The position numbers were made by a program, and so were the translations under genes. From Pseudomonadota bacterium (GTDB lineage: Bacteria; Pseudomonadota; Gammaproteobacteria; Steroidobacterales; Steroidobacteraceae), in assembly GCA_021805865.1 (NCBI GenBank), contig JAJZDX010000023.1, positions 1-64,000 of the forward strand: a stretch of DNA of 64,000 nucleotides, read 5' to 3'. Shown piece after piece: positions 1,423-33,978 of this stretch (position 1 is its first letter; every line of letters starts with the position of its first letter). Below the pieces are notes generated by a model, which ran no database searches, had not been told where the DNA came from, and saw nothing but the letters and a program-made list of their open reading frames with translations.

Positions 1423-2085
1423 CTAGCGTTGTGACTTTGTCTGTCGCGGTCTAGAGGGAGCTTCGGAGTAACCGTGTCGAGCGAAGAAGCGCTCGAGTTC
1501 GCGCCGAGCCGGGGGAGTGGCAGTGAAGATCTCGACGTAGCTCGGAATGCGCGCCATTCGGGTGGCGAGCGACTCCGACGTTTGCATTGAGATATATCCG
1601 ATTTGCGTGAGATAGATAGTTCTCGAACGGACATCGGCAGCCAGAGGCTTGTGGCCGAACCGGATAAACATGCTCTTCAGAGCTTCGAGACGTGTGTTGT
1701 CAGCAGCGGCAATCTCTGCCGCAACGTCGCCGGATCGCTGCGCCCAGTTGCGCACGGCAAATTCGAATCTCGAATCAAATAACCGCTGGTCCAGCCAACA
1801 GTCAAACACATTGAGGATGGCCTCGGAAATCGACTCAGCGTATGCCTCCGACTGTTGCACGAGGTTGCGTGTGTTCTTGGATTTCCAGCGCTCAAGAAGC
1901 GCCTTCAGGAGCGCGTCGCGATCCCTGAAGAACCAGTAAAAACTCGTTCGGGACAATTTGACGCGTTGCGACAACGGCATGATCCGGACAGAGTCGATGC
2001 CGCTGCAAATGAGACTGTCATATGCCGCGTCGAGCCATACATCGAATGAGCCCCGAACCATTGGCTCGACCGCTTTTGTGTTCAC
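1423..2085 (-). CDS. TetR/AcrR family transcriptional regulator
   Basis: 220 aa. An N-terminal helix-turn-helix is seen around residues 15-60, with the typical recognition-helix segment LSRTSFYWFFRDRDALL. The C-terminal ligand/dimer domain is divergent, as is usual in the family. These proteins usually repress nearby genes until a small ligand binds. It is the leftmost intact gene of the catabolic island and is transcribed away from it. Its own promoter region carries a pair of ATATAC half-sites (2121-2150) resembling those before the DapA-like operon and the GntR gene. The ligand is unknown; family call secure, role inferred. Confidence 0.85.
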   Translation of the reverse strand: MNTKAVEPMVRGSFDVWLDAAYDSLICSGIDSVRIMPLSQRVKLSRTSFYWFFRDRDALLKALLERWKSKNTRNLVQQSEAYAESISEAILNVFDCWLDQRLFDSRFEFAVRNWAQRSGDVAAEIAAADNTRLEALKSMFIRFGHKPLAADVRSRTIYLTQIGYISMQTSESLATRMARIPSYVEIFTATPPARRELERFFARHGYSEAPSRPRQTKSQR

Positions 2086-2120
2086 GGCGTGTTCCCCTGA
2101 ATTGCGTGCATTGCACAGAG

Positions 2121-2150
2121 TATATACGGTGGTGTCGAGAACATATACAC
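2121..2150. promoter_or_regulatory. Putative operator upstream of the TetR gene (paired ATATAC half-sites)
   Basis: ATATAC at 2122-2127 and 2143-2148, centres 21 bp apart, about 40-65 bp before the TetR start. Read on the minus strand, the half nearest the gene is TATACTCTGTGCA, very close to TATACTCTTTGCA in front of the DapA-like operon. Inferred binding site; the binding protein is unknown. Confidence 0.5.
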
Positions 2151-2470
2151 TGGAAGTGTTCGCGAAGGGATGATCTCGAGCGGAAGTGGGCGCCCTATCG
2201 GTGCCAAGCCATCCGAGGCCACTTTTAGGAGATCGGGGTGCGGTTGGCCATGTTGTGCGCCGGACAAACGCTTGCGGAGCATTTTGTGGGATAGGAAGAG
2301 TGACGAGCGCAGGGGGAGTCAGCGGCGGGATTTATCCGTTACCACCCCCCACATCAGGGGCGCTCGGAAAAGGCGGCGATTTCTAGAGATTCGGAAAATT
2401 CGCCGTCGTGCGGGCCGAGGCGAGCGACCGCCTGGCGGTGAATTTCAAGCAGTAGAGTGCTTGCGCCGAC
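2151..2470. other. Intergenic, nothing recognised
   Basis: This stretch lies between the TetR promoter region and the 3' end of the 4Fe-4S protein gene. Short frames on both strands match no family known to me. No clear terminator hairpin with a T-run was found. Confidence 0.4.
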
Positions 2471-4389: not shown

Positions 4390-4441
4390 ACATAGTTTCC
4401 GCAGGCACGCCGCTGGCGATCAGCCCGAGGGCTTTGGTTTC

Positions 4442-4460: not shown

Positions 4461-4503
4461 TTCACTGCAAGACACCCATCGGGCCTGGCGAATATCCGCG
4501 GCT

Positions 4504-6054
4504 TCAGTACTCGTCGTTGAGGGCTTCAACAGCCGGGATCTCGCGAGTCCGACGAGCAATATATGCCCTGAGCGCCTCGTCTTTCCCCGGGTCCAGTGCC
4601 GGTTCCTCATACTCGGCCAGCAATTGTCTGGCCCGTTCCAGGGCTCGTTGCGTCACCTCTTTCGAACCTTCAGATTTCCATTGCTCATACGAATTATTGT
4701 CGAAGAGCTTTGGAATAAAGAACGCACGCTCGAAATGCGCAAGGGTGTGGGGATGCCCCAGATAGTGCCCCCCCGGGCCCACGTCGCGCACGGCCGCCAA
4801 GGCCTCGTCAAAGTCGCCCCATTGAACCCCCTGGGCCATCCTGTACCCCATGGCGCAGACTTCGGAATCGACCACGAATTTTGCCACCGAGCAGTGCATG
4901 CCGGCTTCGTTCCAGCCAGCGGAGTGCCAGATGTAATTCGCTCCGGAGAGCAGAACCGCCATCATGGTCATCGCGCTTTCATAGCCCGCCTGCGCATCGA
5001 GCACCTTTGCCCCGCCGAGCAGATTGGACGTCCGCCATGGAACCTTGTAACGCCGCGCCATTTGGCCGATCATGAAATTCATGAGAGATATCTCGGGCGT
5101 GCCGGCCATGGGTGCGCCCGATTGCATTGAAACGGTCGACAGATAGTGGCCGTAGATGGCGGGACAGCCTTTGCGAACCACTTGCGTGTACGCCAAAGCC
5201 GATAGCGCTTCGGCGTTGAGCTGAGCCACAGCGGGTGCTGTCGAGGCGGGCGTATTGGCGCCCGCGAGGACGAAAGGGGAGCAAAGGACCGGCTGATTTC
5301 TTCGGCAGAAAGCCCGCATCGCACCGAGCATGACTCGGTCCCAGACGAGCGGAGAGTTGCCGTTGCAGTTTCCAGTGACCACGGCGTGATCTTCGAGGAA
5401 GTCCGCGCCGAAAAGGATGGCGCACATGTCGAGAACATCCTCGGCATTCTTGGGGGAGGTGGTCATCCCCATGAATGTCTTGTCGGAATACTTCATCGAC
5501 GAATACGTAATATGCAAATGTCGATGCGCGACTATCATGTCCATAGGCTCAACGATGTGATGCGCCGATGAATGTAGAACGGGCATCATATGGGCCAACT
5601 TATGAAACATCCCCAAATCCGCGAGGGTAGGCAGCCGCCGAACGTCATCGAGGTCACGCAGATAGGGCGCGCCAGTCATGGGCACAAAGATGGAGTTCGG
5701 TCCGCCCAGCTCGACATTCTTGGCGGGATTTCGGGCATGCAGAGCAATATGCGGCGGAATGGAGCTGATCAGCTCCATGACGAGTCCGCGGTCAAGGTGG
5801 ACCCGCTCATCTCGAACGTCCGCTCCCGCTTTCTGCCAGTCGGCGAGCGCGGTCGGATCGCGAAATACGACGCCCACCTCCTCCAGGATTGCCAGCGACG
5901 CCTGGTGAATGCGCTCCACCTGCTCCTCGACCATGGGCTCGACGATCGGTAGCCCTCGCTTTAACGTCGGGAGCATGTCGAAGATTGGCGTCAATCGCAT
6001 GGCGCGACGTGCTTCTCGGCCGGCCCTGCGGGATGTGGTAATTTGGCCAGTCAT
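4504..6054 (-). CDS. Trimethylamine methyltransferase (MttB) family protein 1, no pyrrolysine
   Basis: 516 aa from the ATG at 6054, preceded by GGAG; an in-frame GTG at 6084 is possible. It belongs to the MttB superfamily (PF06253). Family hallmarks include GANTPAS and the conserved end pattern HTLAHFERAFFIPKLFDNNS. MttB enzymes move a methyl group from a quaternary or tertiary amine to a partner corrinoid protein. The frame is continuous without an in-frame TAG, so this is a non-pyrrolysine member, a group that includes glycine-betaine methyltransferase MtgB. A strong promoter (6137-6172) precedes it. The only corrinoid protein gene in the window is broken, so the methyl acceptor must be encoded elsewhere or the reaction differs. 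The substrate is unknown. Confidence 0.85.
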   Translation of the reverse strand: MTGQITTSRRAGREARRAMRLTPIFDMLPTLKRGLPIVEPMVEEQVERIHQASLAILEEVGVVFRDPTALADWQKAGADVRDERVHLDRGLVMELISSIPPHIALHARNPAKNVELGGPNSIFVPMTGAPYLRDLDDVRRLPTLADLGMFHKLAHMMPVLHSSAHHIVEPMDMIVAHRHLHITYSSMKYSDKTFMGMTTSPKNAEDVLDMCAILFGADFLEDHAVVTGNCNGNSPLVWDRVMLGAMRAFCRRNQPVLCSPFVLAGANTPASTAPAVAQLNAEALSALAYTQVVRKGCPAIYGHYLSTVSMQSGAPMAGTPEISLMNFMIGQMARRYKVPWRTSNLLGGAKVLDAQAGYESAMTMMAVLLSGANYIWHSAGWNEAGMHCSVAKFVVDSEVCAMGYRMAQGVQWGDFDEALAAVRDVGPGGHYLGHPHTLAHFERAFFIPKLFDNNSYEQWKSEGSKEVTQRALERARQLLAEYEEPALDPGKDEALRAYIARRTREIPAVEALNDEY

Positions 6055-6136
6055 ACCGATGTTCGCTCCGCTAGGAAGTGGCACTTAACCCAAAATCATG
6101 ACCGTGTTGCCTGATCGATCGGCTTCAGCGCGGCGA

Positions 6137-6238: not shown

Positions 6239-7171
6239 ATGAGCCGCCAGTATTACAATCTCCCGCCCTTTACCGCGCTCGCAGTCTTCGAATCGGCAGC
6301 TCGGCATCTCTCCTTCAAGCGTGCGGCCGCTGAGCTCGGGGTGACACCCGGTGCCGTCAGCAAGCAAATTCGGGTCATGGAGGATGAACTCGGAACATCG
6401 CTGTTCGTGCGGCTTGGCGCCGGCGTTTCATTGACTACAGCCGGTGAAGATCTTTACGGCGTCCTCTCGAGTACCTTTGCAAAAACCGCAGAGGTGATCG
6501 GAACGATCAAGCTTGGTGATCGCGCGAAAAACGTGACAGTCGCTTGCACGGACGCATTCGCGGCGTTCTGGCTCATTCCACGAATGCCGGATTTCTGGGA
6601 GCGATTCCCGCAAATCACCGTAGACCACCTGATCTCCGATGATCCCCGGGAATTCAGGCGAGCGGAGGTGGAGTTGCGTGTGCGCTATGGACTGGGTGCG
6701 TGGGCCGATGAGACGGCGGAGCTGCTCCTCGAGGAGACGATTTATCCGGTTTGCGGTCCTGGGTTTGCCAGGGCCCATCCCCGTATTGACGCAAAGACGC
6801 TTCCGGATCTCCCGCTGCTGCACGTCAACTGGGTCGATCCCGGATGGGCGAGCTGGGACGAGGTTCTACGTCGAGCCGGGATACCGCACGTGGCCAACAG
6901 AGGCCGACGATTTGGGAAATTCAGCGTCGCATTGCAGGCCGCGCAAGCCGATCAGGGTGTCGCAGTGGGGTGGCATCGGCTGGTGCGGCACCTGATCAAG
7001 GAACAAAAGCTGGTGCGATTGACCGATCTCGAGCTGCCCGCACCGGGTGGCTATTACCTCACGTGGAACGAGTCCAGACCGCTTTCCCCGGCCGCCGAGG
7101 TGGTCCGCGACTGGCTGAGAGAGATGTCTGTACGGGAACGTAAGCCCGGTGGTGGCGACATTTTGGCCTAG
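6239..7171 (+). CDS. LysR family regulator (GcvA-like)
   Basis: 310 aa. The N-terminal winged helix-turn-helix is seen at about residues 8-66 (ALAVFESAARHLSFKRAAAE, LGVTPGAVSKQI), in the style of the GcvA/AmpR subgroup. The periplasmic-binding-protein-like effector domain follows, including VCGPGFARAHP. It is transcribed divergently from mttB-like 1 across a 150-184 bp gap holding the conserved promoter/operator. LysR genes commonly regulate the divergent neighbour, so activation or repression of mttB-like 1 is the natural expectation. The effector is unknown. The RBS is weak (an A-rich GATAAGAG precedes the ATG). Confidence 0.9.
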   Translation: MSRQYYNLPPFTALAVFESAARHLSFKRAAAELGVTPGAVSKQIRVMEDELGTSLFVRLGAGVSLTTAGEDLYGVLSSTFAKTAEVIGTIKLGDRAKNVTVACTDAFAAFWLIPRMPDFWERFPQITVDHLISDDPREFRRAEVELRVRYGLGAWADETAELLLEETIYPVCGPGFARAHPRIDAKTLPDLPLLHVNWVDPGWASWDEVLRRAGIPHVANRGRRFGKFSVALQAAQADQGVAVGWHRLVRHLIKEQKLVRLTDLELPAPGGYYLTWNESRPLSPAAEVVRDWLREMSVRERKPGGGDILA

Positions 7172-7929: not shown

Positions 7930-8979
7930 CTATTCAAATACACGCGTGACTGTCCTGTCGGTGGCAGAAGATCGATGCGCCCAGCGCCTGCGACGAGGTG
8001 GAAGGAGACCGCAGGTTCCCTTGAACTGCCGACTGAAATGCGCGTCGTCGTTGAATCCCGCCCCAATGGCGATCTCAATGACGGGACGGTTCGTGTTCTC
8101 GATTGGCCAGTGCGCGAGGCGCATGCGCATCTGGCGATAGAGAGCGGCTGGGCCCACGCCGAAATGACGACGGCAGAGCCGCTCGAGCTGCCGAACCGAG
8201 ATGCCGAGTTCTGTGGCGGCGGCTCTGAACGGCAGTCGTTGCGTCAGATTTTTCTCCATTGGAAACAGTGTCCGGCGCACGCGAGACTCGTCAACACATT
8301 TCGCTATCTGCGCATGAGGCTGGGCATCGCAGGCGCCGCGAGGTCGATCAAATAGAAGAAACTGGTCGGCCTTGAGTGCTGCCGCATGTACCAAATGACG
8401 CTCAAGGAGACTGGCTGCGAGCGCGGCAGTGCCCGCGCCACCCGCGCATGTGATACGCAGTCCGTCGGGCAGAAACAATCTATGCGCCACCACCTCGTGG
8501 TCCGGGAACCTTTCGCGAAAGTCCTGGTAGTGATACCAGCTGACACGCGATCGGCGTCGCTGCAGCACCCCGGCGCGGCAGAGGACGAAGCGTCCAGTGC
8601 GAATCCCAATTAGCGAAAAGCTCGTCGCGCCCGTCTGCAGTAGATAGCGCAGGGTAACTTCATCGACTTGAGTCCCAGCGCGCGGGACTCCGCCAACCAT
8701 CATGACATAATCCAGCTCTTCGGGCGACGATAGTGAGCTGGTGGGCTCGACTCGTGCGCCACAGCTGGCCGAAATGGGCTCTTTGCGGGCCCACATGATG
8801 GACCACTTCACGCGCCACTGCCGGCTTTGGTGGCCTTCGTCGGCGGCGACCCGCAGGTGGTCCACTAATGTCGCGAAGGCACACAGCGTGAATCGCTCCG
8901 CTAGGATAATGCCCATTCGCAACAGGGGCCGTCGCGGAAGTACACGTGGGACCGCCTGGGCGTCGAATGAAATGAGCAT
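7930..8979 (-). CDS. GlxA-type AraC regulator (DJ-1/PfpI domain plus AraC HTH)
   Basis: 349 aa from the ATG at 8979; the frame extends further upstream but into the neighbouring SDR gene, so this start is preferred. The N-terminal half is a DJ-1/PfpI-like amidase domain without obvious catalytic Cys context. The C-terminal AraC domain has AAATELGISVRQLERLCRRH and EIAIGAGFNDDAHFSRQFK. This architecture is shared with GbdR and CdhR, which sense glycine betaine and carnitine metabolites. It follows SDR 1 by 8 bp, so it is co-transcribed with the catabolic block. The last residues after FSRQFK are Arg-rich and atypical, so a late frameshift is possible. Confidence 0.85.
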   Translation of the reverse strand: MLISFDAQAVPRVLPRRPLLRMGIILAERFTLCAFATLVDHLRVAADEGHQSRQWRVKWSIMWARKEPISASCGARVEPTSSLSSPEELDYVMMVGGVPRAGTQVDEVTLRYLLQTGATSFSLIGIRTGRFVLCRAGVLQRRRSRVSWYHYQDFRERFPDHEVVAHRLFLPDGLRITCAGGAGTAALAASLLERHLVHAAALKADQFLLFDRPRGACDAQPHAQIAKCVDESRVRRTLFPMEKNLTQRLPFRAAATELGISVRQLERLCRRHFGVGPAALYRQMRMRLAHWPIENTNRPVIEIAIGAGFNDDAHFSRQFKGTCGLLPPRRRRWAHRSSATDRTVTRVFE

Positions 8980-8987
8980 GAGTCGTT

Positions 8988-9752
8988 TCAGGTCACTGGT
9001 AGCGGCAGCTTCTTTGTGCGTCCACCGTCTATGACGTAGACCTGCCCGGTGACGAAGCTGCTTTCCTCGGACGCAAGCCATACCGCGAGGTTTCCGACGT
9101 CCCTGGGCTCGCCCAGGCGTCCGACAGGGTGCATGAGGAGCAATTCGCGGCGAACCCGTGCGCTATCATGCATGCTGTCGATATAGACCTCACTGAGATC
9201 CGAATTGATCCACCCCGGTGCAATCGCATTGCAGCGGACGCCTTCTCGGCCATGATCCACCGCGACCGCAGCGGTGAATCCGTGCAGACCCGCCTTGGAT
9301 GCGGAGTATGCCGGGTGCCCCGGGTTTGAGGCCAGTCCCTCGATCGAGCCGATGTTTATGATGCTTCCGCCGCCGCGCCTGCGAAATTCAGGCATTGCCC
9401 GCTTGGTGAGCAGAAACGGCGCCCTGAGATTGATAGCCATCATCCGGTCCCAGTCCTCTTCGGACATCTCATCGACGGTGCGCTCGAACATAATGCCCGC
9501 GTTGTTGACGAGGATGTCAAGACCATTGAGACGCGCTGCGCTTTCATCGACCGCCTCGGCAATCTCGCTGGACTGCGAGAGGTCAGCTTGCACGAAAATG
9601 ATCTGACTATTGAGCAATTCCTTTGGAGGCGGATTTCTCTGGATCACAGCCACCCTGGCGCCTTCCTCGACAAACCGTCGCGTGATGCCTGAGCCGATTC
9701 CGCGGCCCCCGCCGGTGACAATGGCGGTCTTGCCTGCCAGTCTTTCAGTCAT
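8988..9752 (-). CDS. SDR family oxidoreductase 1
   Basis: 254 aa from the ATG at 9752, chosen because AGGAG lies 8 bp upstream; the open frame continues to 10214 over the next gene. Classical SDR features: TGGGRGIG cofactor loop, NNAGI, catalytic Ser in NIGSIEG, YSASK (Tyr/Lys), and a PGW segment. It probably oxidises or reduces a hydroxy/keto intermediate with NAD(P)H. It sits 11 bp after SDR 2 in the leftward block. The substrate cannot be assigned. Confidence 0.9.
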   Translation of the reverse strand: MTERLAGKTAIVTGGGRGIGSGITRRFVEEGARVAVIQRNPPPKELLNSQIIFVQADLSQSSEIAEAVDESAARLNGLDILVNNAGIMFERTVDEMSEEDWDRMMAINLRAPFLLTKRAMPEFRRRGGGSIINIGSIEGLASNPGHPAYSASKAGLHGFTAAVAVDHGREGVRCNAIAPGWINSDLSEVYIDSMHDSARVRRELLLMHPVGRLGEPRDVGNLAVWLASEESSFVTGQVYVIDGGRTKKLPLPVT

Positions 9753-9763
9753 GGCCATCTCTC

Positions 9764-10531
9764 CTAGTAAACCGGTTTGGCGCCGTTTACTTCTATGGCA
9801 GTGCCGGCAACGTAGCGCGCCGCATCGGAAGTCAGAAAACAAATGACATCGGCGATGTCTTCCGGTTCCGCGATGCGCCCGAGCGGTACGCTTCGGTTGA
9901 GTTCCTCGATCGCCGTGTCGGGATCGAACCCGCGGCGCTCGAACCCGGTGCGAAGCATCGGTGTATTCACCTCGTTCGGACACACGGCATTGACCCGGAC
10001 ACCGTCGGGGGCGTGGTCGCGGCCCAGGCATTTGGACAGACTCGCCACCGCTGCTTTGCTTGATATATATGCGGGGTGATTCGGGCCGGGGTATAGGCCC
10101 CAACATGAAGCGACGTTTACAATGGAGCCACCACCGTGCGCCTTCATGTGGGCAATCGCTCTGCGACATGTGTAGAAGACTGCGGTCAGGTTCACATCCA
10201 GGGTCCTGGCCCAATCCTCGTCGCTCGTCTCCAGGATGTTTCCACGGGTGATTATCCCGGCATTATTGACCAGCACATCGAGCCGACCGGTAGCCTCGAC
10301 CGAATGGTCGATCAGGGCCTCGCAGTAGCTCTTCGATCTCAGGTCGCCGGATTTGTGCCAAACATTTTGCCCAGAGGCGTTCAAGTCGGCGGCGAGCGCT
10401 TGCAGACCGGCAGTGTTCGCATCGCCCAGAATGACGCGGAAACCGCGTTCCACAAAGCGCCTGGCCACCGCCTTGCCGATTCCGCCCGCAGCGCCGGTCA
10501 CGACCGCGGTCTTTCGCTCAGTCTTCGTCAT
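9764..10531 (-). CDS. SDR family oxidoreductase 2
   Basis: 255 aa. TGAAGGIG nucleotide-binding loop, NNAGI, NVASCWG (Ser), YISSK (catalytic Tyr/Lys), and a C-terminal SDAARYVAGTAIEVNGA. Asp follows the second strand (LGDANTAG), which favours NAD over NADP. It starts 72 bp after the FAD oxidase gene and is followed by a second, only distantly similar SDR. Two adjacent SDRs in a block with ALDH and a DapA-like lyase is common in both sugar-acid and hydroxy-amino-acid catabolic operons. Confidence 0.9.
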   Translation of the reverse strand: MTKTERKTAVVTGAAGGIGKAVARRFVERGFRVILGDANTAGLQALAADLNASGQNVWHKSGDLRSKSYCEALIDHSVEATGRLDVLVNNAGIITRGNILETSDEDWARTLDVNLTAVFYTCRRAIAHMKAHGGGSIVNVASCWGLYPGPNHPAYISSKAAVASLSKCLGRDHAPDGVRVNAVCPNEVNTPMLRTGFERRGFDPDTAIEELNRSVPLGRIAEPEDIADVICFLTSDAARYVAGTAIEVNGAKPVY

Positions 10532-13464: not shown

Positions 13465-13467
13465 GAT

Positions 13468-14373: not shown

Positions 14374-14561
14374 GCCGTCTGGCTCCACATGGGTTCTCGC
14401 GTGATCATGGAATCATTTATGGGAGGTGGTTGCGGACACGAGGTAGGGTAGGAGAAGTGGCGGTGTCATATCCGACATGGCAGCCGGCTAGCAGAGGATT
14501 TCTGAAGCAGGCATATGGATGAGGCGAAGGTGGGAACGCCGTTGAGGGGTCGGGCAAAATG

Positions 14562-16332: not shown

Positions 16333-16356
16333 ATGCAAAATCACAAAGGCGTTCGA

Positions 16357-25011: not shown

Positions 25012-25070
25012 GTATCGCAGAGCCGATTGGTCCGTGTTTTTTGCACTGAGTGCGTCGTTCCCAAGAGATC

Positions 25071-27056
25071 ATGTCCAAAAAATTTCCCCGCTTATTCTCC
25101 CCGCTGAGGCTGAATTCGCACACACTTCGGAACCGCATCGTCTTTGGTGCGCACACCGCAAACATGGCAGTGGAAGGCTTGCCCACGGAGCGCCACGTGG
25201 CGTATTACGCGGAACGCGCGATTGGCGGCGCGGCGATGATAGTCGTCGAGCCTATGCCCGTCCACGCGTCGACAGTCCTGACTCGAGGCAATTTCCGTCA
25301 TGCCGATAATTCTGTGATTCCACATTTCAGGAAAGTGGTTGAGGCCATAAAGGGACACGGGGCGGTGGCAGTCCAACAGCTCTATCATGTTGGAGCGCAT
25401 GGTGACTCGGACAACTCGTTCCACCCTCACTGGTCGCCTTCTGGTCTGCCGAGCTACCACGACAGCGACGGATCGCACCCGATGTCAGAAGACGAAATCC
25501 AGGCGACGATTGCCGGGTTCGTGCAGGCGGCAAGACGGTGCAAAGAGGCGGGTTTCGATGGGGTGGAGGTCTGGGCCGCCTATCTCGGCATGGTGGACCA
25601 GTTCTGGACGCCGTGGACAAACCGGAGAGAAGACCAATGGGGCGGCTCGCTCGAGAACCGGACACGGATATCACGAGAGATACTCAGCCAGATACGTCAG
25701 GTCTGCGGGCCGGATTTCATCGTTGGCCTTGCGGTGAGCGATGACCCGGAGAATTCGGTGACGTTGCAGCGTCAGGAGATGGCGGAAATAATCAAACTGC
25801 ACGATGATCTCGGGCTCGTGGACTACGTCACTTGTGGTTCGGGAGGATATCTGGATTTCTACAGACTGATGCCGACGTTTCTCTTTCCGGAGAAGCTCGG
25901 GGTCGACCTGGCTTCCACGTTGAAGCGTGTCGTGCGAAACGCGGTCGTGATCGCCGAAAGCCATATCAGGACTCCGGAGAATGCGGAGACGGTATTGAGC
26001 GAAGGAGCGGCGGACCTTGTATCGATCGTGCGCGGCCAGATCGCCGACCCTCACCTGGCCAGGAAGGCCGGTGAGGGCCGCCCGGAGGATGTTCGCGGCT
26101 GCATCTCGTGCAATCAGATGTGCTGGGGACGCCGTTCCCGGGACTACTGGATCAGCTGCCTGATCAATCCCTCCGCGGGACGGGAGTTCGAGTGGAACGG
26201 AGATCGCTTCGTGAAGACCGACGCGCCGAAGCGCATTTTGGTGGTCGGTGGTGGCCCGGCAGGGCTGGAGGCTGCGAGAGTCGCTGCCGAGCGCGGGCAC
26301 AAAGTGGTGCTGGCGGAAGCATCTAATCGCCTGGGAGGCAATTTCCTGCTCGCCGGCCTGCAGCCGCGGCGCGGACAGATCCTCGACCTGCTGAGGTGGT
26401 ATGAACGACAGCTCGAGGCACTTGGCGTCGAGATACGGTTCAATACCTATGTCGAGGCTGATGAAGTGCCTGGCTTCGATGCCGACATCGTCATCCTGGC
26501 GACCGGGTCGGAATCTCCCGACATGGGGTTCCAGAAGGCTCTGCCGCACCTTGATAGACTGCCTGGAATTGAGAAGGGTGGGGTTCACTCCGTCGAAGCT
26601 GTCATGGCCAGGCAGGCGAGGCTCGGGGCCCGGGTCCTCCTATTGGACGAGGGGGGTGGATGGCGAGGCTGTGGCACGGCGTGGAAGCTGGCGCAAGACG
26701 GTCACCAGGTCACAATAGTCACCCCTGATCCTTTCGTCGGAAAGGAACTCCAGAGAACCGCGGCGGACGTGCCGTTGCGCGGGACGCTGAGGAAACTCGG
26801 CGTACAATGGATTCTGGAATCCAGTATCGCCGAATGGCACGGGCAGGGCGCGACGGTCCTGGATCACACTACGGGCGAGCGCCGTGTCGTGGAGGCGGAC
26901 GCATTGGTCATGGCGGTCACGAATTCGCCTGCAAACGGGTTGGCGCTGGGCCTCGCGTCTTTCCCCAGACCAGTTCATCAGATCGGAGACTGTGCTGCTC
27001 CGCGTCAGGCGCCCTACGCGTTCTACGAAGGCAGAAAGATCGCACTCGAGCTTTGA
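25071..27056 (+). CDS. Trimethylamine dehydrogenase-like FMN/[4Fe-4S]/FAD flavoprotein 1
   Basis: 661 aa from the ATG at 25071. The N-terminal old-yellow-enzyme TIM barrel binds FMN (about residues 1-340). The four cysteines in CISCNQMCW followed by WISCLINP supply the [4Fe-4S] cluster in the TMADH order. Then comes an FAD/NAD Rossmann domain (VVGGGPAGLEAARVAAERGH). Relatives include trimethylamine dehydrogenase, dimethylglycine and N-methylproline (StcD-like) demethylases, and 2,4-dienoyl-CoA reductase. Here it sits just before mttB-like 2 in the same block. N-demethylation of a tertiary amine, releasing formaldehyde, is the most plausible role. A second homologue lies at 30.7 kb. Confidence 0.85.
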   Translation: MSKKFPRLFSPLRLNSHTLRNRIVFGAHTANMAVEGLPTERHVAYYAERAIGGAAMIVVEPMPVHASTVLTRGNFRHADNSVIPHFRKVVEAIKGHGAVAVQQLYHVGAHGDSDNSFHPHWSPSGLPSYHDSDGSHPMSEDEIQATIAGFVQAARRCKEAGFDGVEVWAAYLGMVDQFWTPWTNRREDQWGGSLENRTRISREILSQIRQVCGPDFIVGLAVSDDPENSVTLQRQEMAEIIKLHDDLGLVDYVTCGSGGYLDFYRLMPTFLFPEKLGVDLASTLKRVVRNAVVIAESHIRTPENAETVLSEGAADLVSIVRGQIADPHLARKAGEGRPEDVRGCISCNQMCWGRRSRDYWISCLINPSAGREFEWNGDRFVKTDAPKRILVVGGGPAGLEAARVAAERGHKVVLAEASNRLGGNFLLAGLQPRRGQILDLLRWYERQLEALGVEIRFNTYVEADEVPGFDADIVILATGSESPDMGFQKALPHLDRLPGIEKGGVHSVEAVMARQARLGARVLLLDEGGGWRGCGTAWKLAQDGHQVTIVTPDPFVGKELQRTAADVPLRGTLRKLGVQWILESSIAEWHGQGATVLDHTTGERRVVEADALVMAVTNSPANGLALGLASFPRPVHQIGDCAAPRQAPYAFYEGRKIALEL

Positions 27057-27196
27057 TGCAATCGAGAGTGATTTCACTGTGGCTGGATTCCTAGCAATAG
27101 CGTGCAGGAGCCAAGCTTCAGACGGTTCTCAGCGGGGTATTATCCCCGCTGTCCACCGAATCGGTGTCAGTTCGACGCATGACGGGAACGAGTGTC

Positions 27197-28747
27197 ATGA
27201 CCAATGAAACCATGCCAGCGCGCCGCGCCCGGCCGAGCGCGCGGGATTCACGCAAAGCGCAGCGCGCGGCCCGTCCTGCAGCCCCGGCGTACATCACGCG
27301 CGCAATTCCACCGTATGAACTGCTTTCACCGGAGGGGCTCGAGGCCGTTGAAAGGGCTGCCGATCAGCTGCTCGAGGAGGTCGGTCTGGAGATCCGCGGA
27401 GACGCCGATGCTATCCAGCTTTGGCGCCAAGCAGGTGCGACGATCACGGATCAATGGCGAGTCCACGTTCCAGCGGGCCTCGCTCGGGAAATTGTTCGCA
27501 GAACCGCTCCGAGCGAGTTCGTCCAGCATGCACGTAACCCGGCGCATAGCGTGCGGATCGGCGGCAAGAATACCGTGCTGGTGCCCGCTTACGGGTCGCC
27601 TTTCGTGTCCGATCTCGATTCCGGCAGGCGCTACGGCACAATAGAGGATTTCCGCAATTTCGTGAAGCTTGCCTATCTTTCGCCGTGGTTGCATCACTCC
27701 GGCGGAACGGTATGCGAGCCTGTCGATGTGCCCGTCAACAAGCGGCACATGGATATGGTCTACGCGCATATGCGCTGGTCCGACAAGGCGTTCATGGGAT
27801 CGGTGACGACGGCGGCGCGGGCGGCGGACTCGATCGATATGTGCCGGATCCTTTTCGGGAAGGAATTCGTCGCAAATAATTGCGTCATTCTCGGCAATGT
27901 CAACGTCAACTCGCCCCTCGTCCTTGATGGGGAGGCGAGCCGCGTCATCCGCACCTACGCCGCCGCCAACCAGGCGCCGGTGTGCGTGCCGTTCATCCTG
28001 GGTGGAGCAATGGGCCCGGTCACCACGGCAGGCGGCCTGGCGCAGTGTTTTGCCGAAGCCATGTTCTGCGTAGCCCTTGGCCAGCTCGAGCGACCCGGAT
28101 CCCCGGCAATTCTGGGTAATTTCCTCTCCTCCATGTCGTTGCGCAGTGGCGCGCCCACCTTCGGTACCCCGGAGCCGGCCCTGGCCTACTTCGCTATCGG
28201 TCAGCTCGCCCGCAGACTCGGTGTTCCATTGCGCTGTGGGGGGAATCTGTGCGCCTCCAAGGTTCCGGACGCCCAAGCGGCCTACGAGAGCGCTAATTCG
28301 ATGTGGCCGGCATTCCTTGCGGGAGCGAATTTCATACTGCATTCGGCTGGCTGGCTCGAAGGGGCGCTCACTATGTCCTATGAAAAGTTTGTCATGGACG
28401 TGGATCAGTGCGGCGCCTTGCATGTCCTTGCCCGGGGAATGAATCTCGATGAGAACGCGTTCGGGCTGTCGGCCTTCCGAGAGGTCGGGCCGGGAAAACA
28501 CTTTCTCGGATCCCAGCACACGCTTGCCAATTACGAGACCGCGTTCTACGACTTCGAGCTCGCCGACAACAACTCCTTCGAGCAGTGGAGCGCCGATGGG
28601 TCCCATGATCAGCTGACCCGTGCGAACAAGCGGTGGAAGGCGATGCTCGAGAGCTACGAGGCACCGCCGTTGGACCCCGCCAAGGACGAGGAACTGCGGG
28701 AATATATCCAGCGCAGGAAGGCAAGCATGCCGGATGATATTGTGTAG
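27197..28747 (+). CDS. Trimethylamine methyltransferase (MttB) family protein 2, no pyrrolysine
   Basis: 516 aa from the ATG at 27197, exactly the length of mttB-like 1; upstream in-frame starts exist at 27164 and 27179. Family blocks shared with copy 1 include HSAGW, GNVNVNSPL (copy 1: GNCNGNSPL), and EVGPGKHFLGSQHTLANYE. No in-frame stop that could be pyrrolysine. The paralogues are clearly diverged, so they are not a recent duplication and probably take different substrates. Last gene of the rightward block; a terminator follows 27 bp later. Its corrinoid partner is not intact in this window. Confidence 0.85.
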   Translation: MTNETMPARRARPSARDSRKAQRAARPAAPAYITRAIPPYELLSPEGLEAVERAADQLLEEVGLEIRGDADAIQLWRQAGATITDQWRVHVPAGLAREIVRRTAPSEFVQHARNPAHSVRIGGKNTVLVPAYGSPFVSDLDSGRRYGTIEDFRNFVKLAYLSPWLHHSGGTVCEPVDVPVNKRHMDMVYAHMRWSDKAFMGSVTTAARAADSIDMCRILFGKEFVANNCVILGNVNVNSPLVLDGEASRVIRTYAAANQAPVCVPFILGGAMGPVTTAGGLAQCFAEAMFCVALGQLERPGSPAILGNFLSSMSLRSGAPTFGTPEPALAYFAIGQLARRLGVPLRCGGNLCASKVPDAQAAYESANSMWPAFLAGANFILHSAGWLEGALTMSYEKFVMDVDQCGALHVLARGMNLDENAFGLSAFREVGPGKHFLGSQHTLANYETAFYDFELADNNSFEQWSADGSHDQLTRANKRWKAMLESYEAPPLDPAKDEELREYIQRRKASMPDDIV

Positions 28748-28868: not shown

Positions 28869-29894
28869 TCAGGGATTTATGCTACCGGCCTGCGGAAGCG
28901 TCGCTGGCGTATGCGTGAGCATGGTTCGGGGTGGGCGTCGCTCCCGGCTGGGAGCATGTCCGAAAAGAGCGCGGTAAGAGCGGCTGAAGTGGCAGGGGGA
29001 GCGAAAGCCGCAGGCCACTGCAATGTCCATGACTGACATGGTCGTCTGCTGTAAGAGGCTTCGGGCGCGGCCCAGGCGCACCGTGACGTAGTGCTGCTCT
29101 GGCGTGAGACCTAGGTTGCGGCGAAACAGGCGCTGCAGCTGGCGCTGGGACGTTTGACAGAGCTGTGCGAGTTCCTCGATAGACAACGGCTCCTCGATAT
29201 TGGCTTCCATGAGCTGGGCTGCGAGTGCAATCGATGGATAGGTGCTGTTGAGGCGGGCCGCAAGAGGGATGTGCTGGCGATCTTTGCTGTCGCGGATGCG
29301 CTCCACAATGAAAGCCTCGGAGATGCCGGCCGCAAGCGTCCGGCCGATGCGCGGGGTGATCAGGTGCATCATGAAGTCGAGAGGCGCAATACCGCCGGTA
29401 CAGGTATAGCGGTTGCGGTCGGTGACGAACAAGTTTGGCGTGAACACGATCTGCGGAAAGAGCTCGCGCGATCCCCAAAGGTTTTCCCAATGGATTGCGC
29501 ACCGGTAGCCGTCGAGGAGCCCCGCTTTGGCGAGCGCGTATGCGCCGGTACATAGCGCGCCGAGGACAATGCGTCTCTGCGCCAAGCGGCACAATAGGTG
29601 CACCAGCCCGCTATCCACGGCAGTCGGTACATCGGCCCCGCCGCAAACGAACAGTATGTCCGGCAGCGCTGACTCGTCAATCTTGCGAGTTGGGGTAAGC
29701 GTCAGGCCACTGCTGGCGGCGACCGGCTCGCCGTCTGCGGAATACACCGACCAGCGATACAACTCACATCCGGCGAGGCGATTGGCCATGCGCAGCGGCT
29801 CGAGCGCGTTAGTCAACGCGATCATGGAAAAATGTCGCAGCGTGAGAAAGCCGAAGTGGCTGAGGGGGGCGGAATCTGTGCGCGGGAAATGCAT
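28869..29894 (-). CDS. GlxA-type AraC regulator, GbdR-like
   Basis: 341 aa. The N-terminal DJ-1/PfpI domain reads FGFLTLRHFSMIALTNALEP and ends with TCTGGIAPLDFMMHLI. The C-terminal AraC HTH has LAQLCQTSQRQLQRLFRRNL and DIAVACGFRSPCHFSRSYR. The FSMIALTNALEPLRMANRL form is close to what I know from GbdR, the glycine-betaine/dimethylglycine-sensing activator of quaternary-amine catabolism. It starts 21 bp after the stop of the corrinoid pseudogene, so both are probably read from the conserved promoter at 30.43 kb. A betaine-derived ligand is likely but not proven. Confidence 0.87.
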   Translation of the reverse strand: MHFPRTDSAPLSHFGFLTLRHFSMIALTNALEPLRMANRLAGCELYRWSVYSADGEPVAASSGLTLTPTRKIDESALPDILFVCGGADVPTAVDSGLVHLLCRLAQRRIVLGALCTGAYALAKAGLLDGYRCAIHWENLWGSRELFPQIVFTPNLFVTDRNRYTCTGGIAPLDFMMHLITPRIGRTLAAGISEAFIVERIRDSKDRQHIPLAARLNSTYPSIALAAQLMEANIEEPLSIEELAQLCQTSQRQLQRLFRRNLGLTPEQHYVTVRLGRARSLLQQTTMSVMDIAVACGFRSPCHFSRSYRALFGHAPSRERRPPRTMLTHTPATLPQAGSINP

Positions 29895-29915
29895 CTTGTT
29901 GCCCGACGATGTGGA

Positions 29916-30317
29916 TCAGGCCGGCAATGCGGCGTCTTCGAGCATCATCGGCGCGAGGTTCTTGCCGATGTCGTGAATGTCGCCCTCGGCGGTGCCGATC
30001 ACGACATTGCCGATGGGCTCAGCCAGGGTCTCGGCCAAGAGCGGGAGCAGGATCTCCATCCCGGTCTTCACGGCGTTCGCCGCGAGCAGCACCTTGGGAA
30101 AGCACAGGATTCCGCCACGGAATCGATGCCGACGATGCCCATGCCTTCCGCCAGCGCATCGTTCAGCGCTTTCTCGGCGCCCCAACCGCGTTCGAGGAGA
30201 ATATGGGGGCGCTTTCACGACCTCGTTCTTCGGGCCGTTGTAGAGATCGCCGTAAACCTGCTCGGTCGGCTCCTGATCGGTCATGTCGCGCAGATTGGAG
30301 TCGCTCTCGTCTGTCAT
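29916..30317 (-). pseudogene. Corrinoid (MtbC/MttC-like) methyltransferase partner protein, frameshifted and truncated
   Basis: The start is MTDESDSNLRDMTDQEPTEQ at 30317. An extra C in the C-run at 30205-30209 shifts the frame. In the shifted frame the expected helical domain reads LLERGWGAEKALNDALAEGM then GIVGID. A missing T near 30121 restores the frame (RGGILCFPKVLLAANAVKTG). The cobalamin His motif GDIHDIGKN is present, but the protein stops after MMLEDAALPA, before most of the B12-binding Rossmann domain. The two indels could be assembly errors in homopolymers; the C-terminal loss could not. No functional corrinoid carrier is therefore encoded here. Confidence 0.85.
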
Positions 30318-30461: not shown

Positions 30462-30640
30462 TAAATTTCACGCGTGCGTTGAATTGCGTGCCGCGCTATT
30501 GCTGTATTTGTGTAACGGCTCGGATGGTGAGAGCCACCGGTGCCAATGCCTGCAAGACGAGCGACGAGCGGGAAGGCGGCTTGCCTGGACCTAAAGCAGG
30601 ATCACCGTTTACCCGCACGATCGGCGCGACATGGTGCGCG

Positions 30641-30692
30641 ACTGTACTGAGAAGTCGAGATACTTGACACTAAAGTACAGTACGAATAAGAT
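30641..30692 (+). promoter_or_regulatory. Sigma70 promoter of flavoprotein 2 with flanking inverted repeat
   Basis: TTGACA at 30664-30669, 17-bp spacer, TAAGAT at 30687-30692. Arms ACTGTACT (30641-30648) and AGTACAGT (30674-30681) form an 8-bp perfect inverted repeat straddling the -35, a likely operator. The predicted transcript starts near 30699, so translation must start downstream, at the GTG at 30727. Confidence 0.7.
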
Positions 30693-30726
30693 CGAAACAG
30701 TCGATCATCACTCGGTGGGGTCTTCC

Positions 30727-32763
30727 GTGTCCTCGGATCCGCTATTGCAGCCTTTTCGCCTGAAGCATCTGCTCCTGCGTAACCGGATTATGACGACATC
30801 GCATGAGCCGGCGTATTCAGAGGACGGCATGCCCAAGGCCCGCTATCGCGCCTATCACGTCGAGCGGGCGCGTGCGGGACTCGCGTTGACCATGACCGCT
30901 GGCTCCGCGGCGGTGTCCCGGGACAGCCCGCCGGTCTTCAGTAACCTATTGCTGTACAAGGATGAGGTTGTGCCGTGGCTCAAAGAGCTGGCGGAGGCGG
31001 TGCACGAGCACGGTACGGCGGTGATGATCCAGCTGACCCACCTCGGCCGGCGCACGCGATGGGACAAGGCAGATTGGCTGCCAGCGGTTTCTCCCTCCCA
31101 CCGCCGGGAGGCGTCGCATCGTTCTTTTCCAAAGAGGATCGAGGACTGGGACATCGAGCGGATCCGCAAGGATTACGTCGACGCGGCGGAGCGGGTTCAT
31201 GCCGCCGGTTTTGATGGCTTGGAATTGCAGGCCTATGGCCACTTGATGGATCAGTTCTGGTCGCCCCTCACCAACGATCTCGACAGCCTGTACGGTGGAT
31301 CGCTGGACAACCGCTTGCGCTTCACCTTGGAGGTTCTCGCGGATATCCGCAAGCGGGTAGGCCCACACTTCATCTTGGGCGTTCGTTACACCGCGGATGA
31401 GGTCCTTGAAGGAGGACTATCGCGCGAAGAGGGGCTGGAAATCTCCAGAAAGCTCAAAGACAGCGGTCTGGTGGATTTTCTGAACGTCGTGCGCGGGCAC
31501 ATCGACACGGATGCCGGTCTGACGGACGTCATTCCAGTTCAGGGGATGGGGAGCGCGCCCCATCTTGAGTTTGCCGGGGAGATTCGAGCCGCCACCCGGT
31601 TTCCCACCTTTCATGCGGGGAGAATCCAAGATGTTGCGACCGCGCGCCACGCCATCGCATCGGGCAAACTCGATATGGTTGGCCTCACCCGGGCGCACAT
31701 CGCGGATCCCCACATCGTGCGCAAGATCCTTGAGCGCCGGGAAGAGGAGATACGTCCCTGCGTGGGCGCGAATTATTGCCTGGACCGCATTTACCAGGGC
31801 GGCGCCGCCTATTGCATTCACAATGCCGCAAGCGGCCGCGAGCTTCAGATGCCGCATGAAGTTCAGCCCGCCGAGGTGAAGCGCAAGGTCGTTGTGGTCG
31901 GTGCGGGCCCTGGCGGTCTGGAAGCAGCGCGGGTGGCGTCCGAGCGAGGCCATACGGTCGTGGTGTTCGAGGCGAACAGCAAACCGGGTGGCCAGATTCG
32001 GCTCACGGCGCAGAGCCCTCGGCGTCGGGAAATGCTCGGAATCATCGACTGGCGGATGGCTCAATGCGCCGCCCACGGGGTGACCTTCCGGTTCGATACG
32101 TTGGCTGAGGCCGAGGATGTGCTCGCGGAGAGACCGGACGTGGTCATCATCGCCACTGGAGGCCTGCCGCATACGGAGGTCCTTGAGTCGGGGAACGAAC
32201 ACGTTGCATCGACCTGGGATATTCTTTCCGGTGGAATGAAGCCTGGGGCACGCGTGTTGCTCTTCGACGATGCCGGAGACCACTGCGCTTTGCAGGCCGC
32301 CGAATTCATAGCGCAAAGTGATGCGCGCCTGGAAATCATGACGCCTGACCGGAGTTTTGCGCCAGAGGTCATGGCGATGAACCTCGTGCCGTACATGCGC
32401 ACCCTTCAGAGAGAGAATGTCACGTTTACGGTGACGTATCGACTGCAGAAAGTGGAGCGCCTCGGCAATGCGTTACGCGCGATCATCGGCAGCGACTACG
32501 GCGGCCCGAAGCAGGAGCGGGTCGTCGACCAAGTCGTCGTGAACCACGGGACCATTCCACTGGACGAGCTCTATCTCGCCCTCAAGCCATTGTCCAGAAA
32601 TGGGGGAGCAGTCGACTACGGCGCTCTCCTTTCTGGAAGGCCACAGACCGTAACGGTGAACCATCAATCGCATTTCCGGTTGTTTCGAATCGGCGATGCG
32701 GTCGCAGCCCGCAACACCCATGCCGCGATTTACGACGCGTTGCGGTTGGTCAAGGAGTTGTAA
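30727..32763 (+). CDS. Trimethylamine dehydrogenase-like flavoprotein 2 (DgcA/StcD type)
   Basis: 678 aa from the GTG at 30727, which has GGTGGGG upstream and lies 35 bp after the promoter -10; the in-frame ATG at 30631 is upstream of that promoter and is rejected. FMN barrel, then a cysteine region CVGANYC...AAYCIHN with only three cysteines of the usual CxxCxxxC-x11-C, then the FAD Rossmann motif VVGAGPGGLEAARVASERGH. I know this CVGA(N/G)YC form from proteins annotated as dimethylglycine or N-methylproline demethylases, so loss of the second Cys may be a subfamily trait. Probably oxidative N-demethylation of a tertiary amine. An AraC gene follows 42 bp later. Confidence 0.85.
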   Translation: MSSDPLLQPFRLKHLLLRNRIMTTSHEPAYSEDGMPKARYRAYHVERARAGLALTMTAGSAAVSRDSPPVFSNLLLYKDEVVPWLKELAEAVHEHGTAVMIQLTHLGRRTRWDKADWLPAVSPSHRREASHRSFPKRIEDWDIERIRKDYVDAAERVHAAGFDGLELQAYGHLMDQFWSPLTNDLDSLYGGSLDNRLRFTLEVLADIRKRVGPHFILGVRYTADEVLEGGLSREEGLEISRKLKDSGLVDFLNVVRGHIDTDAGLTDVIPVQGMGSAPHLEFAGEIRAATRFPTFHAGRIQDVATARHAIASGKLDMVGLTRAHIADPHIVRKILERREEEIRPCVGANYCLDRIYQGGAAYCIHNAASGRELQMPHEVQPAEVKRKVVVVGAGPGGLEAARVASERGHTVVVFEANSKPGGQIRLTAQSPRRREMLGIIDWRMAQCAAHGVTFRFDTLAEAEDVLAERPDVVIIATGGLPHTEVLESGNEHVASTWDILSGGMKPGARVLLFDDAGDHCALQAAEFIAQSDARLEIMTPDRSFAPEVMAMNLVPYMRTLQRENVTFTVTYRLQKVERLGNALRAIIGSDYGGPKQERVVDQVVVNHGTIPLDELYLALKPLSRNGGAVDYGALLSGRPQTVTVNHQSHFRLFRIGDAVAARNTHAAIYDALRLVKEL

Positions 32764-32805
32764 AGAAAGCGGCCGGCGACTGCCAGAGCCAGCTGGGGGT
32801 CAATC

Positions 32806-33978
32806 ATGTCGCTGAAAATCTCATCGTCCCATCACGATACAGTCGCACTTCCTGAATTCCTGGGGAGCGCATCCCGCGAGCATTGGCCTCGGCATTCGAG
32901 TAGTCAGCTCGAGGAACCCTGCGGGGGTCCGGCCAGCGAGCAAGGGCTGTTCAGGGCAATTCTGGCTGGTCGCGGCCATACCTTGCAGGATGCGTTCGAG
33001 AGCCTGGAACGAACGCCCCATGTGGAGCGCATCTCGGTCAATCCGGTTCGAGGCTTGATGGGCGTCAGGGTTGCTCTCGAGCCGCATGAGGGCAAAGGCT
33101 ACTGGGATTTCATCCGCATTCGCCGGGAAATTTACGTTGTCGTCGCCAATCTGGCATACCATGAATCGCGACTGGAATTGTTGCCCGGGGAGGGGCTGAT
33201 CAGTTTCAGCTTCAAGATCTCCGGTGACATGTCACTCGCAGTGAGCGGTACCAAGCCACTTCGTTGGAACAGACCGTCGCTGCTCGTATGGTCGCAGCCC
33301 GCCGGTGTAGACACCAGCGAATGGACGGCCCCCAGCGCCTACGAGCGCTTCGTGATCCTCAGCATGCATCCGGAGTATCTGGCCGATCACTTCTTCGGCT
33401 CGCGCGTCGCGGTGCCCGAGTCTATCAAGCAGTTCCTGTGGAACAATGGAGAAAAGATAAACTTCGGACGCTATCCGCTCTCGGCGCAGGCTTTTGAGGT
33501 TGCGGAAAGAATGATCAACAGTCGGTATACGGGGGCGCTTGGGCTCGCTCATGTCGAAGCTTTATCGACCGAGCTGCTCTGTCACGCGGTGGCAAGCCTC
33601 ACCTCGTTGTCCGAAGGGGCTCCAAGGGGTTGTACCGATCGAGAGGTCAAGCGTCTGGAGATGGCGCGGGCGATCCTCGTACGACAGCTTGCGCCCGCAC
33701 CCACGATCGCGGAATTGGTGCGCACGGTCGGCATGTCGAAGACGGCGCTGACCCAAGGGTTCAAAGCGCTCTACGGTGAAACCATCTTCGACTTTGGCGT
33801 GCGCTGCCGCATGCAACACGCGCTCATGATGATGCGTGACCGAGGCTGGTCGGTCGAGCAGGCGGCAGAAGCTGTAGGATATGCTCATCCGACCTCATTT
33901 GCGACGGCTTTCCGGAGCCACTTCGGCATGCGACCGATCGATGTACGCAAGAGAAGTCCGGCCAGCGAGGTGGCCTAG
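32806..33978 (+). CDS. AraC family transcriptional regulator
   Basis: 390 aa with a long, non-GlxA N-terminal domain (about residues 1-290), containing FISFSFKISGD-like strands typical of a cupin-like sensor, and a C-terminal AraC HTH: IAELVRTVGMSKTALTQGFK and EQAAEAVGYAHPTSFATAFR, closest in style to PchR. It is 42 bp after flavoprotein 2 and in the same direction, so it probably regulates that gene, perhaps through the inverted repeat at 30641-30681. Its stop codon overlaps the stop of the convergent Rieske remnant. Confidence 0.87.
   Translation: MSLKISSSHHDTVALPEFLGSASREHWPRHSSSQLEEPCGGPASEQGLFRAILAGRGHTLQDAFESLERTPHVERISVNPVRGLMGVRVALEPHEGKGYWDFIRIRREIYVVVANLAYHESRLELLPGEGLISFSFKISGDMSLAVSGTKPLRWNRPSLLVWSQPAGVDTSEWTAPSAYERFVILSMHPEYLADHFFGSRVAVPESIKQFLWNNGEKINFGRYPLSAQAFEVAERMINSRYTGALGLAHVEALSTELLCHAVASLTSLSEGAPRGCTDREVKRLEMARAILVRQLAPAPTIAELVRTVGMSKTALTQGFKALYGETIFDFGVRCRMQHALMMMRDRGWSVEQAAEAVGYAHPTSFATAFRSHFGMRPIDVRKRSPASEVA

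Follow-up and report, generated by a model that had tools for sequence, protein, structure and literature searches.

The window analysed here spans the first 64 kb of contig C33 (74.8 kb) in the 4.68-Mb genome assembly of a Steroidobacteraceae bacterium and carries a catabolic gene island at about 1.4-34 kb. The island was probably assembled laterally for the catabolism of proline-type betaines, and MttB corrinoid methyltransferases would take the place of a Rieske oxygenase in the first demethylation of the quaternary nitrogen. The genes appear to form two modules. One consists of the methyltransferase MttB-a, an HpbD-type epimerase, a pair of short-chain dehydrogenases/reductases (SDRs) and an oxidase-deaminase-dehydrogenase trio, and would convert hydroxyproline betaine to 2-oxoglutarate. 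The other, MttB-b with the trimethylamine dehydrogenase (TMADH)-type flavoprotein TMADH-2, would convert proline betaine to proline. Both MttB proteins match PF06253 over their full length (715 and 735 bits) with no in-frame stop, and score 287 and 234 bits against TIGR02369 (trimethylamine methyltransferase MttB), under its curated cut-off of 525. Pfam scans found every part that a first-pass annotation had named: two MttB proteins, two TMADH-like flavoproteins, two enolase-superfamily enzymes (MR_MLE), an Ldh_2 reductase, the trio, a TonB receptor and a major facilitator superfamily (MFS) carrier. The substrate class proposed there, proline-type betaines, is supported. The genes of the two modules are as follows.

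4504..6084, minus strand: MttB-a, non-pyrrolysine MttB-family methyltransferase, predicted hydroxyproline-betaine:corrinoid (PF06253, full length)
8988..9758, minus strand: SDR2 (Pfam; start chosen during the analysis; 79% identity to Sinorhizobium fredii SDR2)
9764..10531, minus strand: SDR1 (Pfam; 77-78% to SDR1 of S. fredii and Rhizobium rhizogenes)
10604..11950, minus strand: FAD-dependent oxidase (DAO), HypO-like (PF01266; 61-62% to the FAD oxidoreductase of GntR-DapA-ALDH-FAD-betaine ABC-4-hydroxyproline epimerase gene groups)
11950..13464, minus strand: aldehyde dehydrogenase (ALDH), HypS-like (PF00171; 70-72% to the ALDH of the same groups)
13468..14388, minus strand: DapA-family protein, HypD-like, predicted imino acid deaminase (PF00701; 72% to the DapA of the same groups)
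22918..24024, plus strand: ENO2, predicted HpbD-type betaine 2-epimerase/racemase (nearest solved structures 4e8g/4izg and 2pmq/4h2h; 61% to an hpbD-annotated protein of Paracoccus pantotrophus)
25050..27056, plus strand: TMADH-1, TMADH-type flavoprotein, predicted N-methyl(hydroxy)proline demethylase (Oxidored_FMN and Pyr_redox domains; 77-82% to rhizobial proteins)
27164..28747, plus strand: MttB-b, non-pyrrolysine MttB-family protein, predicted proline-betaine:corrinoid methyltransferase (PF06253; linked to an HpbA orthologue)
30631..32763, plus strand: TMADH-2, HpbA orthologue, predicted N-methylproline demethylase (Oxidored_FMN and Pyr_redox domains; 74% over 675 residues to an hpbA-annotated P. 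pantotrophus protein)

The association of MttB with HpbD recurs in many other genomes. An HpbD alignment was used to scan named genomes and gave 380 relatives, of which the best 79 distinct loci by score were kept with flanks of up to 10 kb, a number of them shorter; Rieske genes were sought in them by three references only. Of the 79 loci, 45 have an MttB gene no farther than 10 kb from HpbD, 38 without a matched Rieske gene and 7 with one, while nine loci have a Rieske gene only and 25 have neither. For the 56 loci that extend 5 kb or more to each side, the corresponding counts are 37 with MttB, 8 with Rieske only and 11 with neither. The binomial probability for 37/56 is 4e-38, computed with an estimated rather than measured background of 4% on loci that are related and picked by score. 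The MttB match has at least 65% identity in 41 of the 45 MttB-HpbD loci and lies no more than 400 bp from HpbD in 28. Oxidase, ALDH and DapA are all present in 36/45 of these loci versus 4/34 of the other HpbD loci, and the SDR pair in 39/45 versus 7/34. As a control, loci around more distant enolases (at most 41% identity) were searched at the same tblastn threshold, and none of the ten had an MttB gene. The view that the island joins parts normally seen apart thus does not hold: MttB lies near HpbD in more than half of these loci, usually together with two SDRs and the trio.

In a tree built by a quick method and covering 43 of the 45 MttB-HpbD loci (L110 and L124 have no row), MttB-a belongs to a group with full support whose 48 rows all come from HpbD loci: 46 HpbD-locus rows, the HpbD locus L041 and the window. 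The MttB proteins adjoining HpbD in Desulfobacteria (L063, L065) and Trueperaceae (L064), which are among several long branches flagged in the tree, form two lineages outside this group. The pairing of MttB with HpbD therefore seems to have arisen more than once.

Identification of ENO2 as an HpbD-type epimerase or racemase, already suggested in the first-pass annotation for one of the two enolases, is supported by its nearest solved relatives. It scores 498 bits with 4e8g/4izg and 445 bits with 2pmq/4h2h, and the next structure, 4mgg, follows at 260 bits. The entries for the two nearest pairs are named only mandelate racemase/muconate lactonizing enzyme; we take them to be the Paracoccus and Pelagibaca HpbD structures. 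In an alignment of seven HpbD-type sequences, residues K164, K265, D193, E218, D241, Y56, D292 and W320 of ENO2 are invariant, and these presumably comprise the catalytic lysines, the metal ligands and the betaine-site residues.

The trio at 10604-14388 on the minus strand consists of DAO, ALDH and dihydrodipicolinate synthase (DHDPS) superfamily genes standing together. Passages of PMC4113996 give D-amino acid oxidase plus DHDPS plus ALDH as the signature of a hydroxyproline route, and the earlier reading of the trio as HypO-HypD-HypS agrees with that set. Orthologues with 61-72% identity occur in one Rhizobium ruizarguesonis and one Agrobacterium plasmid, within gene groups that run GntR, DapA, ALDH, FAD oxidoreductase, betaine ATP-binding cassette (ABC) transporter and 4-hydroxyproline epimerase; the annotated epimerase and betaine-type transporter were seen in these two records. 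Another gene row is found on S. meliloti pSymA (L181, 8001-14894), in the order DapA, FAD, SDR, ALDH, proline racemase, SDR, SDR. The company of a proline racemase family gene there is in line with a stereochemical role of the SDRs.

The second module rests on linkage in the host genus. TMADH-2 is 74% identical to the hpbA-annotated P. pantotrophus protein, which belongs to a Rieske-containing cluster, and it can be regarded as an HpbA orthologue and predicted N-methylproline demethylase. MttB-b and HpbA were surveyed in 99 genomes, the host's own and 98 relatives, with MttB-b taken at 76% identity or more (the next group reaches at most 63%) and HpbA at an E value of 1e-180 or better. MttB-b orthologues occur in 10 genomes, HpbA orthologues in 8 and both in 5, a genome-level co-occurrence with p = 1.7e-4, or 1.1e-3 without the host genome. 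The two genes lie less than 10 kb apart in all six cases (the window, contig C46 of the same genome, G303, G310, G311 and G343). This linkage suggests a route from proline betaine through N-methylproline to proline.

From such kinships and neighborhoods we infer every substrate and reaction of the following pathway. In the first module HpbD would epimerise hydroxyproline betaine at C2, and MttB-a would transfer one N-methyl to a corrinoid protein, the remaining N-methyl being left to the flavoprotein TMADH-1 and possibly to the FAD oxidase as well. Hydroxyproline would then be converted to 2-oxoglutarate by the FAD oxidase, the DapA-type deaminase and ALDH, with the SDR pair perhaps interconverting hydroxyl stereoisomers. 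In the second module MttB-b would convert proline betaine to N-methylproline, which TMADH-2 (HpbA) would demethylate to proline. A pterin methyltransferase would take over the methyl groups from the corrinoid protein and yield methyl-tetrahydrofolate, on which a MetF-type enzyme would act, while a RACo protein would keep the corrinoid reduced; these proteins would be encoded elsewhere in the genome. Taken together, the neighborhoods are good evidence that proline-type betaines are broken down by way of corrinoid methyl transfer.

The enzyme genes of the island have no internal stop, the Rieske remnant excepted. Its parts beyond those named at first are the tandem SDR pair, a zinc alcohol dehydrogenase, a GbdR-like regulator and a decayed corrinoid-protein gene. 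Outside the two modules the island contains the following.

6239..7171, plus strand: LysR regulator (Pfam; 66-71% to LysR genes adjoining MttB-a orthologues in rhizobia)
7930..9081, minus strand: AraC/GlxA-type regulator, DJ-1/PfpI plus helix-turn-helix (profile matches)
14797..15594, minus strand: GntR/FCD regulator (Pfam; 63-65% to the regulators of the 4-hydroxyproline epimerase gene groups above)
16333..19107, plus strand: TonB-dependent receptor (Pfam; 74% to a receptor on C46)
19208..20569, plus strand: MFS carrier (Pfam)
20641..21714, plus strand: zinc-type alcohol dehydrogenase (ADH), partner of ENO1 (74-75% to an S. fredii ADH that adjoins an ENO1 orthologue)
21739..22845, plus strand: ENO1, enolase-superfamily, hydroxyproline-dehydratase-like subgroup (NF043002, 342 bits, cut-off 500; 79% to S. 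fredii)
24052..25011, plus strand: Ldh_2 (MLD2) imine reductase, DpkA-like (PF02615; nearest solved relative 1wtj)
28869..29894, minus strand: GbdR-like regulator (NF052371, 378 bits, cut-off 480)
29925..30317, minus strand: decayed MtgC-type corrinoid-protein gene (59% to residues 1-134 of the corrinoid protein of a genus relative)
32806..33978, plus strand: AraC-family regulator (Pfam; 64% to the regulator adjoining the MttB-b paralogue on C46)
33978..34962, minus strand: decayed Rieske oxygenase gene (two fragments, no Rieske motif)

The Rieske remnant reported at first is real. The fragment at 33978-34244 on the minus strand is 44% identical to a Rieske oxygenase C-terminus (E 1.4e-17) and an N-terminal scrap lies at 34852-34962 on the same strand; no CxH...CxxH motif occurs in any frame of 33900-35100. 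The locus thus holds decayed fragments only and no intact Rieske-type quaternary amine demethylase. A rhizobial relative, L082, carries a Rieske gene together with ADH, HpbD, Ldh and TMADH-1. The fossil and this Rieske-bearing counterpart support the reading that corrinoid transfer stands where a Rieske enzyme stood. The proposal that the oxygenase step has been replaced is upheld to that extent, but a role of the TMADH-like enzymes as replacements is not supported, since TMADH-2 is so close to the HpbA of a Rieske-containing cluster. A short stretch at 34540-34917, between the fragments, resembles a D12-class DNA adenine methyltransferase (E 0.0065, under the cut-off) and is perhaps what broke the Rieske gene.

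A different explanation would be a classical Hpb/Stc pathway whose oxygenase is encoded elsewhere, the MttB proteins serving other betaines such as glycine betaine and merely sharing the island. HpbA, HpbD, Ldh and the trio are indeed common to Rieske-containing clusters, and a Rieske gene is near 16 of the 79 HpbD loci, in 7 of them beside MttB, a count from three references that may miss others. However, the island's own Rieske gene is decayed (the rest of the genome was not searched for this Rieske kind), 38 of the 79 HpbD loci have MttB with no matched Rieske gene, and MttB-b tracks HpbA in the host genus. This explanation is very unlikely.

Several observations weigh against replacement of the oxygenase by MttB in a (hydroxy)proline betaine pathway. 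The 79 HpbD loci are mostly from Alphaproteobacteria (56/79) and, being also the best-scoring of 380, are not independent. In a further sample of HpbD genes with at least 55% identity, only two of six had MttB nearby (L041 and L042; not L043, L044, L045 or L177). MttB-b occurs without HpbA in 5 of its 10 genomes and HpbA without MttB-b in 3 of 8, at the cut-offs used and with several of the assemblies incomplete. DAO, ALDH and DapA each score below every NCBIfam equivalog cut-off listed. The 40-kb region that surrounds the hydroxyproline epimerase on S. meliloti pSymB holds no close relative of the trio, weak pieces only, and orthology of the trio with the S. meliloti hyp genes is not borne out there. 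The corrinoid protein MtgC is present in the host genome only in pieces, the N-terminal part at the left end of C46 and the right end of C43, the C-terminal part at the right end of C19 and the left end of C66. Finally, a search with MttB-a covered the class of G071 (385 genomes), a sample drawn without regard to HpbD. This reverse test gave ten MttB-a-clade genes (72-81% identity), none with HpbD nearby and one with it in the genome; HpbD occurs in two of the 385 genomes (E 1e-110), one of which, G682, is among the ten and carries it on another contig. The full trio is present at five of the ten loci and the oxidase at seven. A strict dependence between MttB-a and HpbD is ruled out by this test; the stable partner of MttB-a would be the trio, with HpbD optional.

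With loci that have no HpbD, the substrate of MttB-a could also differ. The island might degrade another N-methylated imino acid or a hydroxylated betaine, cyclic or acyclic, with HpbD a mere accessory racemase and MttB-a specific for that compound, which the oxidase, the DapA-type enzyme and ALDH would then process. The retention of the trio without HpbD in the reverse test and the scores under the equivalog cut-offs are what such a substrate would lead one to expect. On the other side, the trio orthologues have a betaine-type ABC transporter and an annotated 4-hydroxyproline epimerase as neighbors, and MttB lineages that do not belong to the MttB-a clade are again found next to HpbD. Another substrate is accordingly considered unlikely.

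The pieces of MtgC and a hub of methyl-transfer genes on C66 bear on the methyl acceptor of the proposed betaine pathway. The contig ends bearing MtgC pieces share exactly 127 bp in each pair, as expected if a two-copy repeat had broken the assembly. C66 carries DUF1638, MetF C-terminal domain, MTHFR, Pterin_bind and RACo genes. Passages of PMC12478193 describe glycine betaine demethylation in Ruegeria pomeroyi by MtgC (corrinoid) and MtgD (pterin), with RamA, DUF1638 and MetF2 induced. The DUF1638, MTHFR, Pterin_bind and RACo genes of C66 are the set given in these passages for aerobic glycine betaine demethylation, and the host appears to have this methyl-accepting machinery; that this hub serves the island's MttB proteins we infer. 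The pieces at the contig ends and the C66 hub speak against the MttB proteins being orphans without a methyl acceptor. In five relatives, three of the genus and two of the order, corrinoid-hub genes were found near an MttB gene in the fetched loci. The decayed MtgC gene in the island has one internal TGA and matches the Pfam B12-binding domain only at E 0.13-0.18. The idea of orphan MttB proteins had come from the PF02607 genes found at first, only a MetH-like one and a URO-D-linked one.

How the second methyl group is removed may vary. A single-demethylation shortcut, itself a variant of the MttB-based pathway, would have MttB take one methyl and the FAD oxidase oxidise the ring of N-methyl-hydroxyproline, after which the DapA-type enzyme would open the N-methyl iminium and release methylamine, not ammonia. 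No TMADH-type or Rieske demethylase was matched in 37 of the 45 MttB-HpbD loci, 35 of which also lack a Sox-type match, and a minimal module of MttB-a, DAO, ALDH and DapA is found in L169 and L170. For the island itself the shortcut is improbable: the window carries two TMADH-type demethylases, and in the other loci, some of them short, the second-step enzymes may sit elsewhere or be of kinds that were not searched for. It is doubtful, too, whether the whole MttB-a clade represents a widespread and so far undescribed demethylase of hydroxyproline betaine, aerobic and cobalamin-dependent, recruited repeatedly beside HpbD in place of a Rieske enzyme and in its minimal form performing one demethylation with methylamine released at the DapA-type ring opening.

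The Hpb pathway for trans-4-hydroxyproline betaine, known from Paracoccus and Pelagibaca, uses HpbD, HpbA and Rieske enzymes. The island resembles it in the HpbD-type epimerase, the HpbA-type N-methylproline demethylase and the oxidase-deaminase-ALDH finish. It differs in its decayed Rieske gene, in the presence of MttB proteins and in having a TonB receptor and an MFS carrier with no betaine ABC transporter in the island. The second point of comparison is the MtgBCD system of R. pomeroyi, with which the host shares PF06253 proteins, the pterin methyltransferase, RamA/RACo, DUF1638, a MetF-type enzyme and, as far as its MtgC pieces show, the corrinoid protein (passages of PMC12478193). The predicted substrates differ, being (hydroxy)proline betaines in the host, as does the number of PF06253 genes, ten in the host genome versus up to seven per genome in those passages, which leave the others unassigned. 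The island combines two known kinds of system and is not unique to the host genome. MtpB, cited in PMC12478193 as the proline betaine methyltransferase of the anaerobe Eubacterium limosum, is, judged by that description and not by sequence, a third likeness: it belongs to the MttB superfamily and acts on proline betaine, the substrate predicted here. Plasmid pB of Cereibacter sphaeroides 2.4.1 (L057) shares MttB-a, HpbD, both SDRs, the trio and GntR with the window, in the order MttB-HpbD-SDR-SDR / FAD-ALDH-DapA-GntR / ProVWX. Unlike the window, it has an ABC transporter and no TMADH-type gene or second MttB among the genes listed, and its annotation names no pathway.

A 2025 paper (PMC12478193) reported that glycine betaine is demethylated aerobically in a corrinoid-dependent way. 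Among the literature matches listed, no paper joined MttB with HpbD or hydroxyproline betaine, though an earlier mention is possible since key HpbD and proline-betaine papers lay outside the search. Conserved neighborhoods in this locus and in its relatives connect two MttB clades with proline-type betaines, and the predictions can be tested in a cultured laboratory strain, C. sphaeroides 2.4.1. If they are true, part of the turnover of (hydroxy)proline betaines derived from plants and algae requires vitamin B12 and passes its methyl groups on to folate, with no formaldehyde released at that demethylation step.

ENO1 belongs to a subgroup separate from ENO2. Its nearest solved relatives are 2ps2 (592 bits) and 2pce, it lacks D292 and W320, and its binding residues are not HpbD-like. 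Profile matches and nearest solved relatives rule out a sugar-acid dehydratase reading of both enolases. ADH of the window type is present in 15 of the 79 HpbD loci, ENO1 in 6 and both in 5 (at least 55% identity); loci with such genes near HpbD are L061, L059, L093, L102, L111, L130 and L134. The solved relative of Ldh_2, 1wtj, is named ureidoglycolate dehydrogenase / delta1-piperideine-2-carboxylate reductase, and a 44% relative adjoins a TMADH-1 relative in R. ruizarguesonis. Passages of PMC4113996 identify MLD2 (Ldh_2) as pyrroline-2-carboxylate reductase.

The island looks like imported rhizobial-type modules joined with a native one. Among the sequences compared, MttB-a, LysR, SDR1, SDR2, ENO1, TMADH-1 and the trio are nearest to Hyphomicrobiales proteins (61-85%), MttB-a being 85% identical to a Mesorhizobium plasmid protein and 79% to the C. 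sphaeroides 2.4.1 pB protein. These genes coexist in the island with others that have paralogues on contig C46 of the same genome: MttB-b (88%, the same as to the G343 copy), TMADH-2 (75%), the TonB receptor (74%) and the last AraC regulator (64%). ADH is about equally near to S. fredii (75%) and a Desulfobacterales protein (72%). ENO2/HpbD has 57-68% identity to many groups, its nearest relatives in the scan being metagenome-assembled genomes of other phyla, and HpbD was not found in 57 other genomes of the host genus (E 1e-60). ProV or ProX (at least 50%) is present in 31 of the 79 HpbD loci; the island has the TonB receptor and MFS carrier instead. In 2-kb windows the G+C content is 0.56-0.65 up to 36 kb and 0.64-0.71 past that point, where PurH-, AccC- and GroEL-like genes, recognised by their first residues, presumably mark the core genome.

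Downstream of MttB-a, at 2471-4389, a small protein with 4Fe-4S-type cysteine clusters and no Pfam match overlaps a divergent ALDH-like gene. In the compared loci the Fe-S-type protein (2471-3166) had no relative at E 1e-20, and the ALDH-like neighbor had only weak ones. A role of the former as corrinoid activator is unsupported, the best solved match having E 0.36. Elsewhere in the genome, C45 (L017, 3735-13069) has a URO-D-family methyltransferase, a whole corrinoid protein, RACo, Pterin_bind and an XylR-type sigma-54 activator, possibly for methoxyaromatic O-demethylation. MttB genes on C75, C46 and C19 (L011, L013, L016) lie near sarcosine-oxidase-subunit-like genes. A SoxA with the folate-binding GCV_T domain is Pfam-confirmed for L011, and the genes of this kind at L013 and L016 were recognised by eye; this suggests further betaine routes pairing MttB with folate-linked demethylases.

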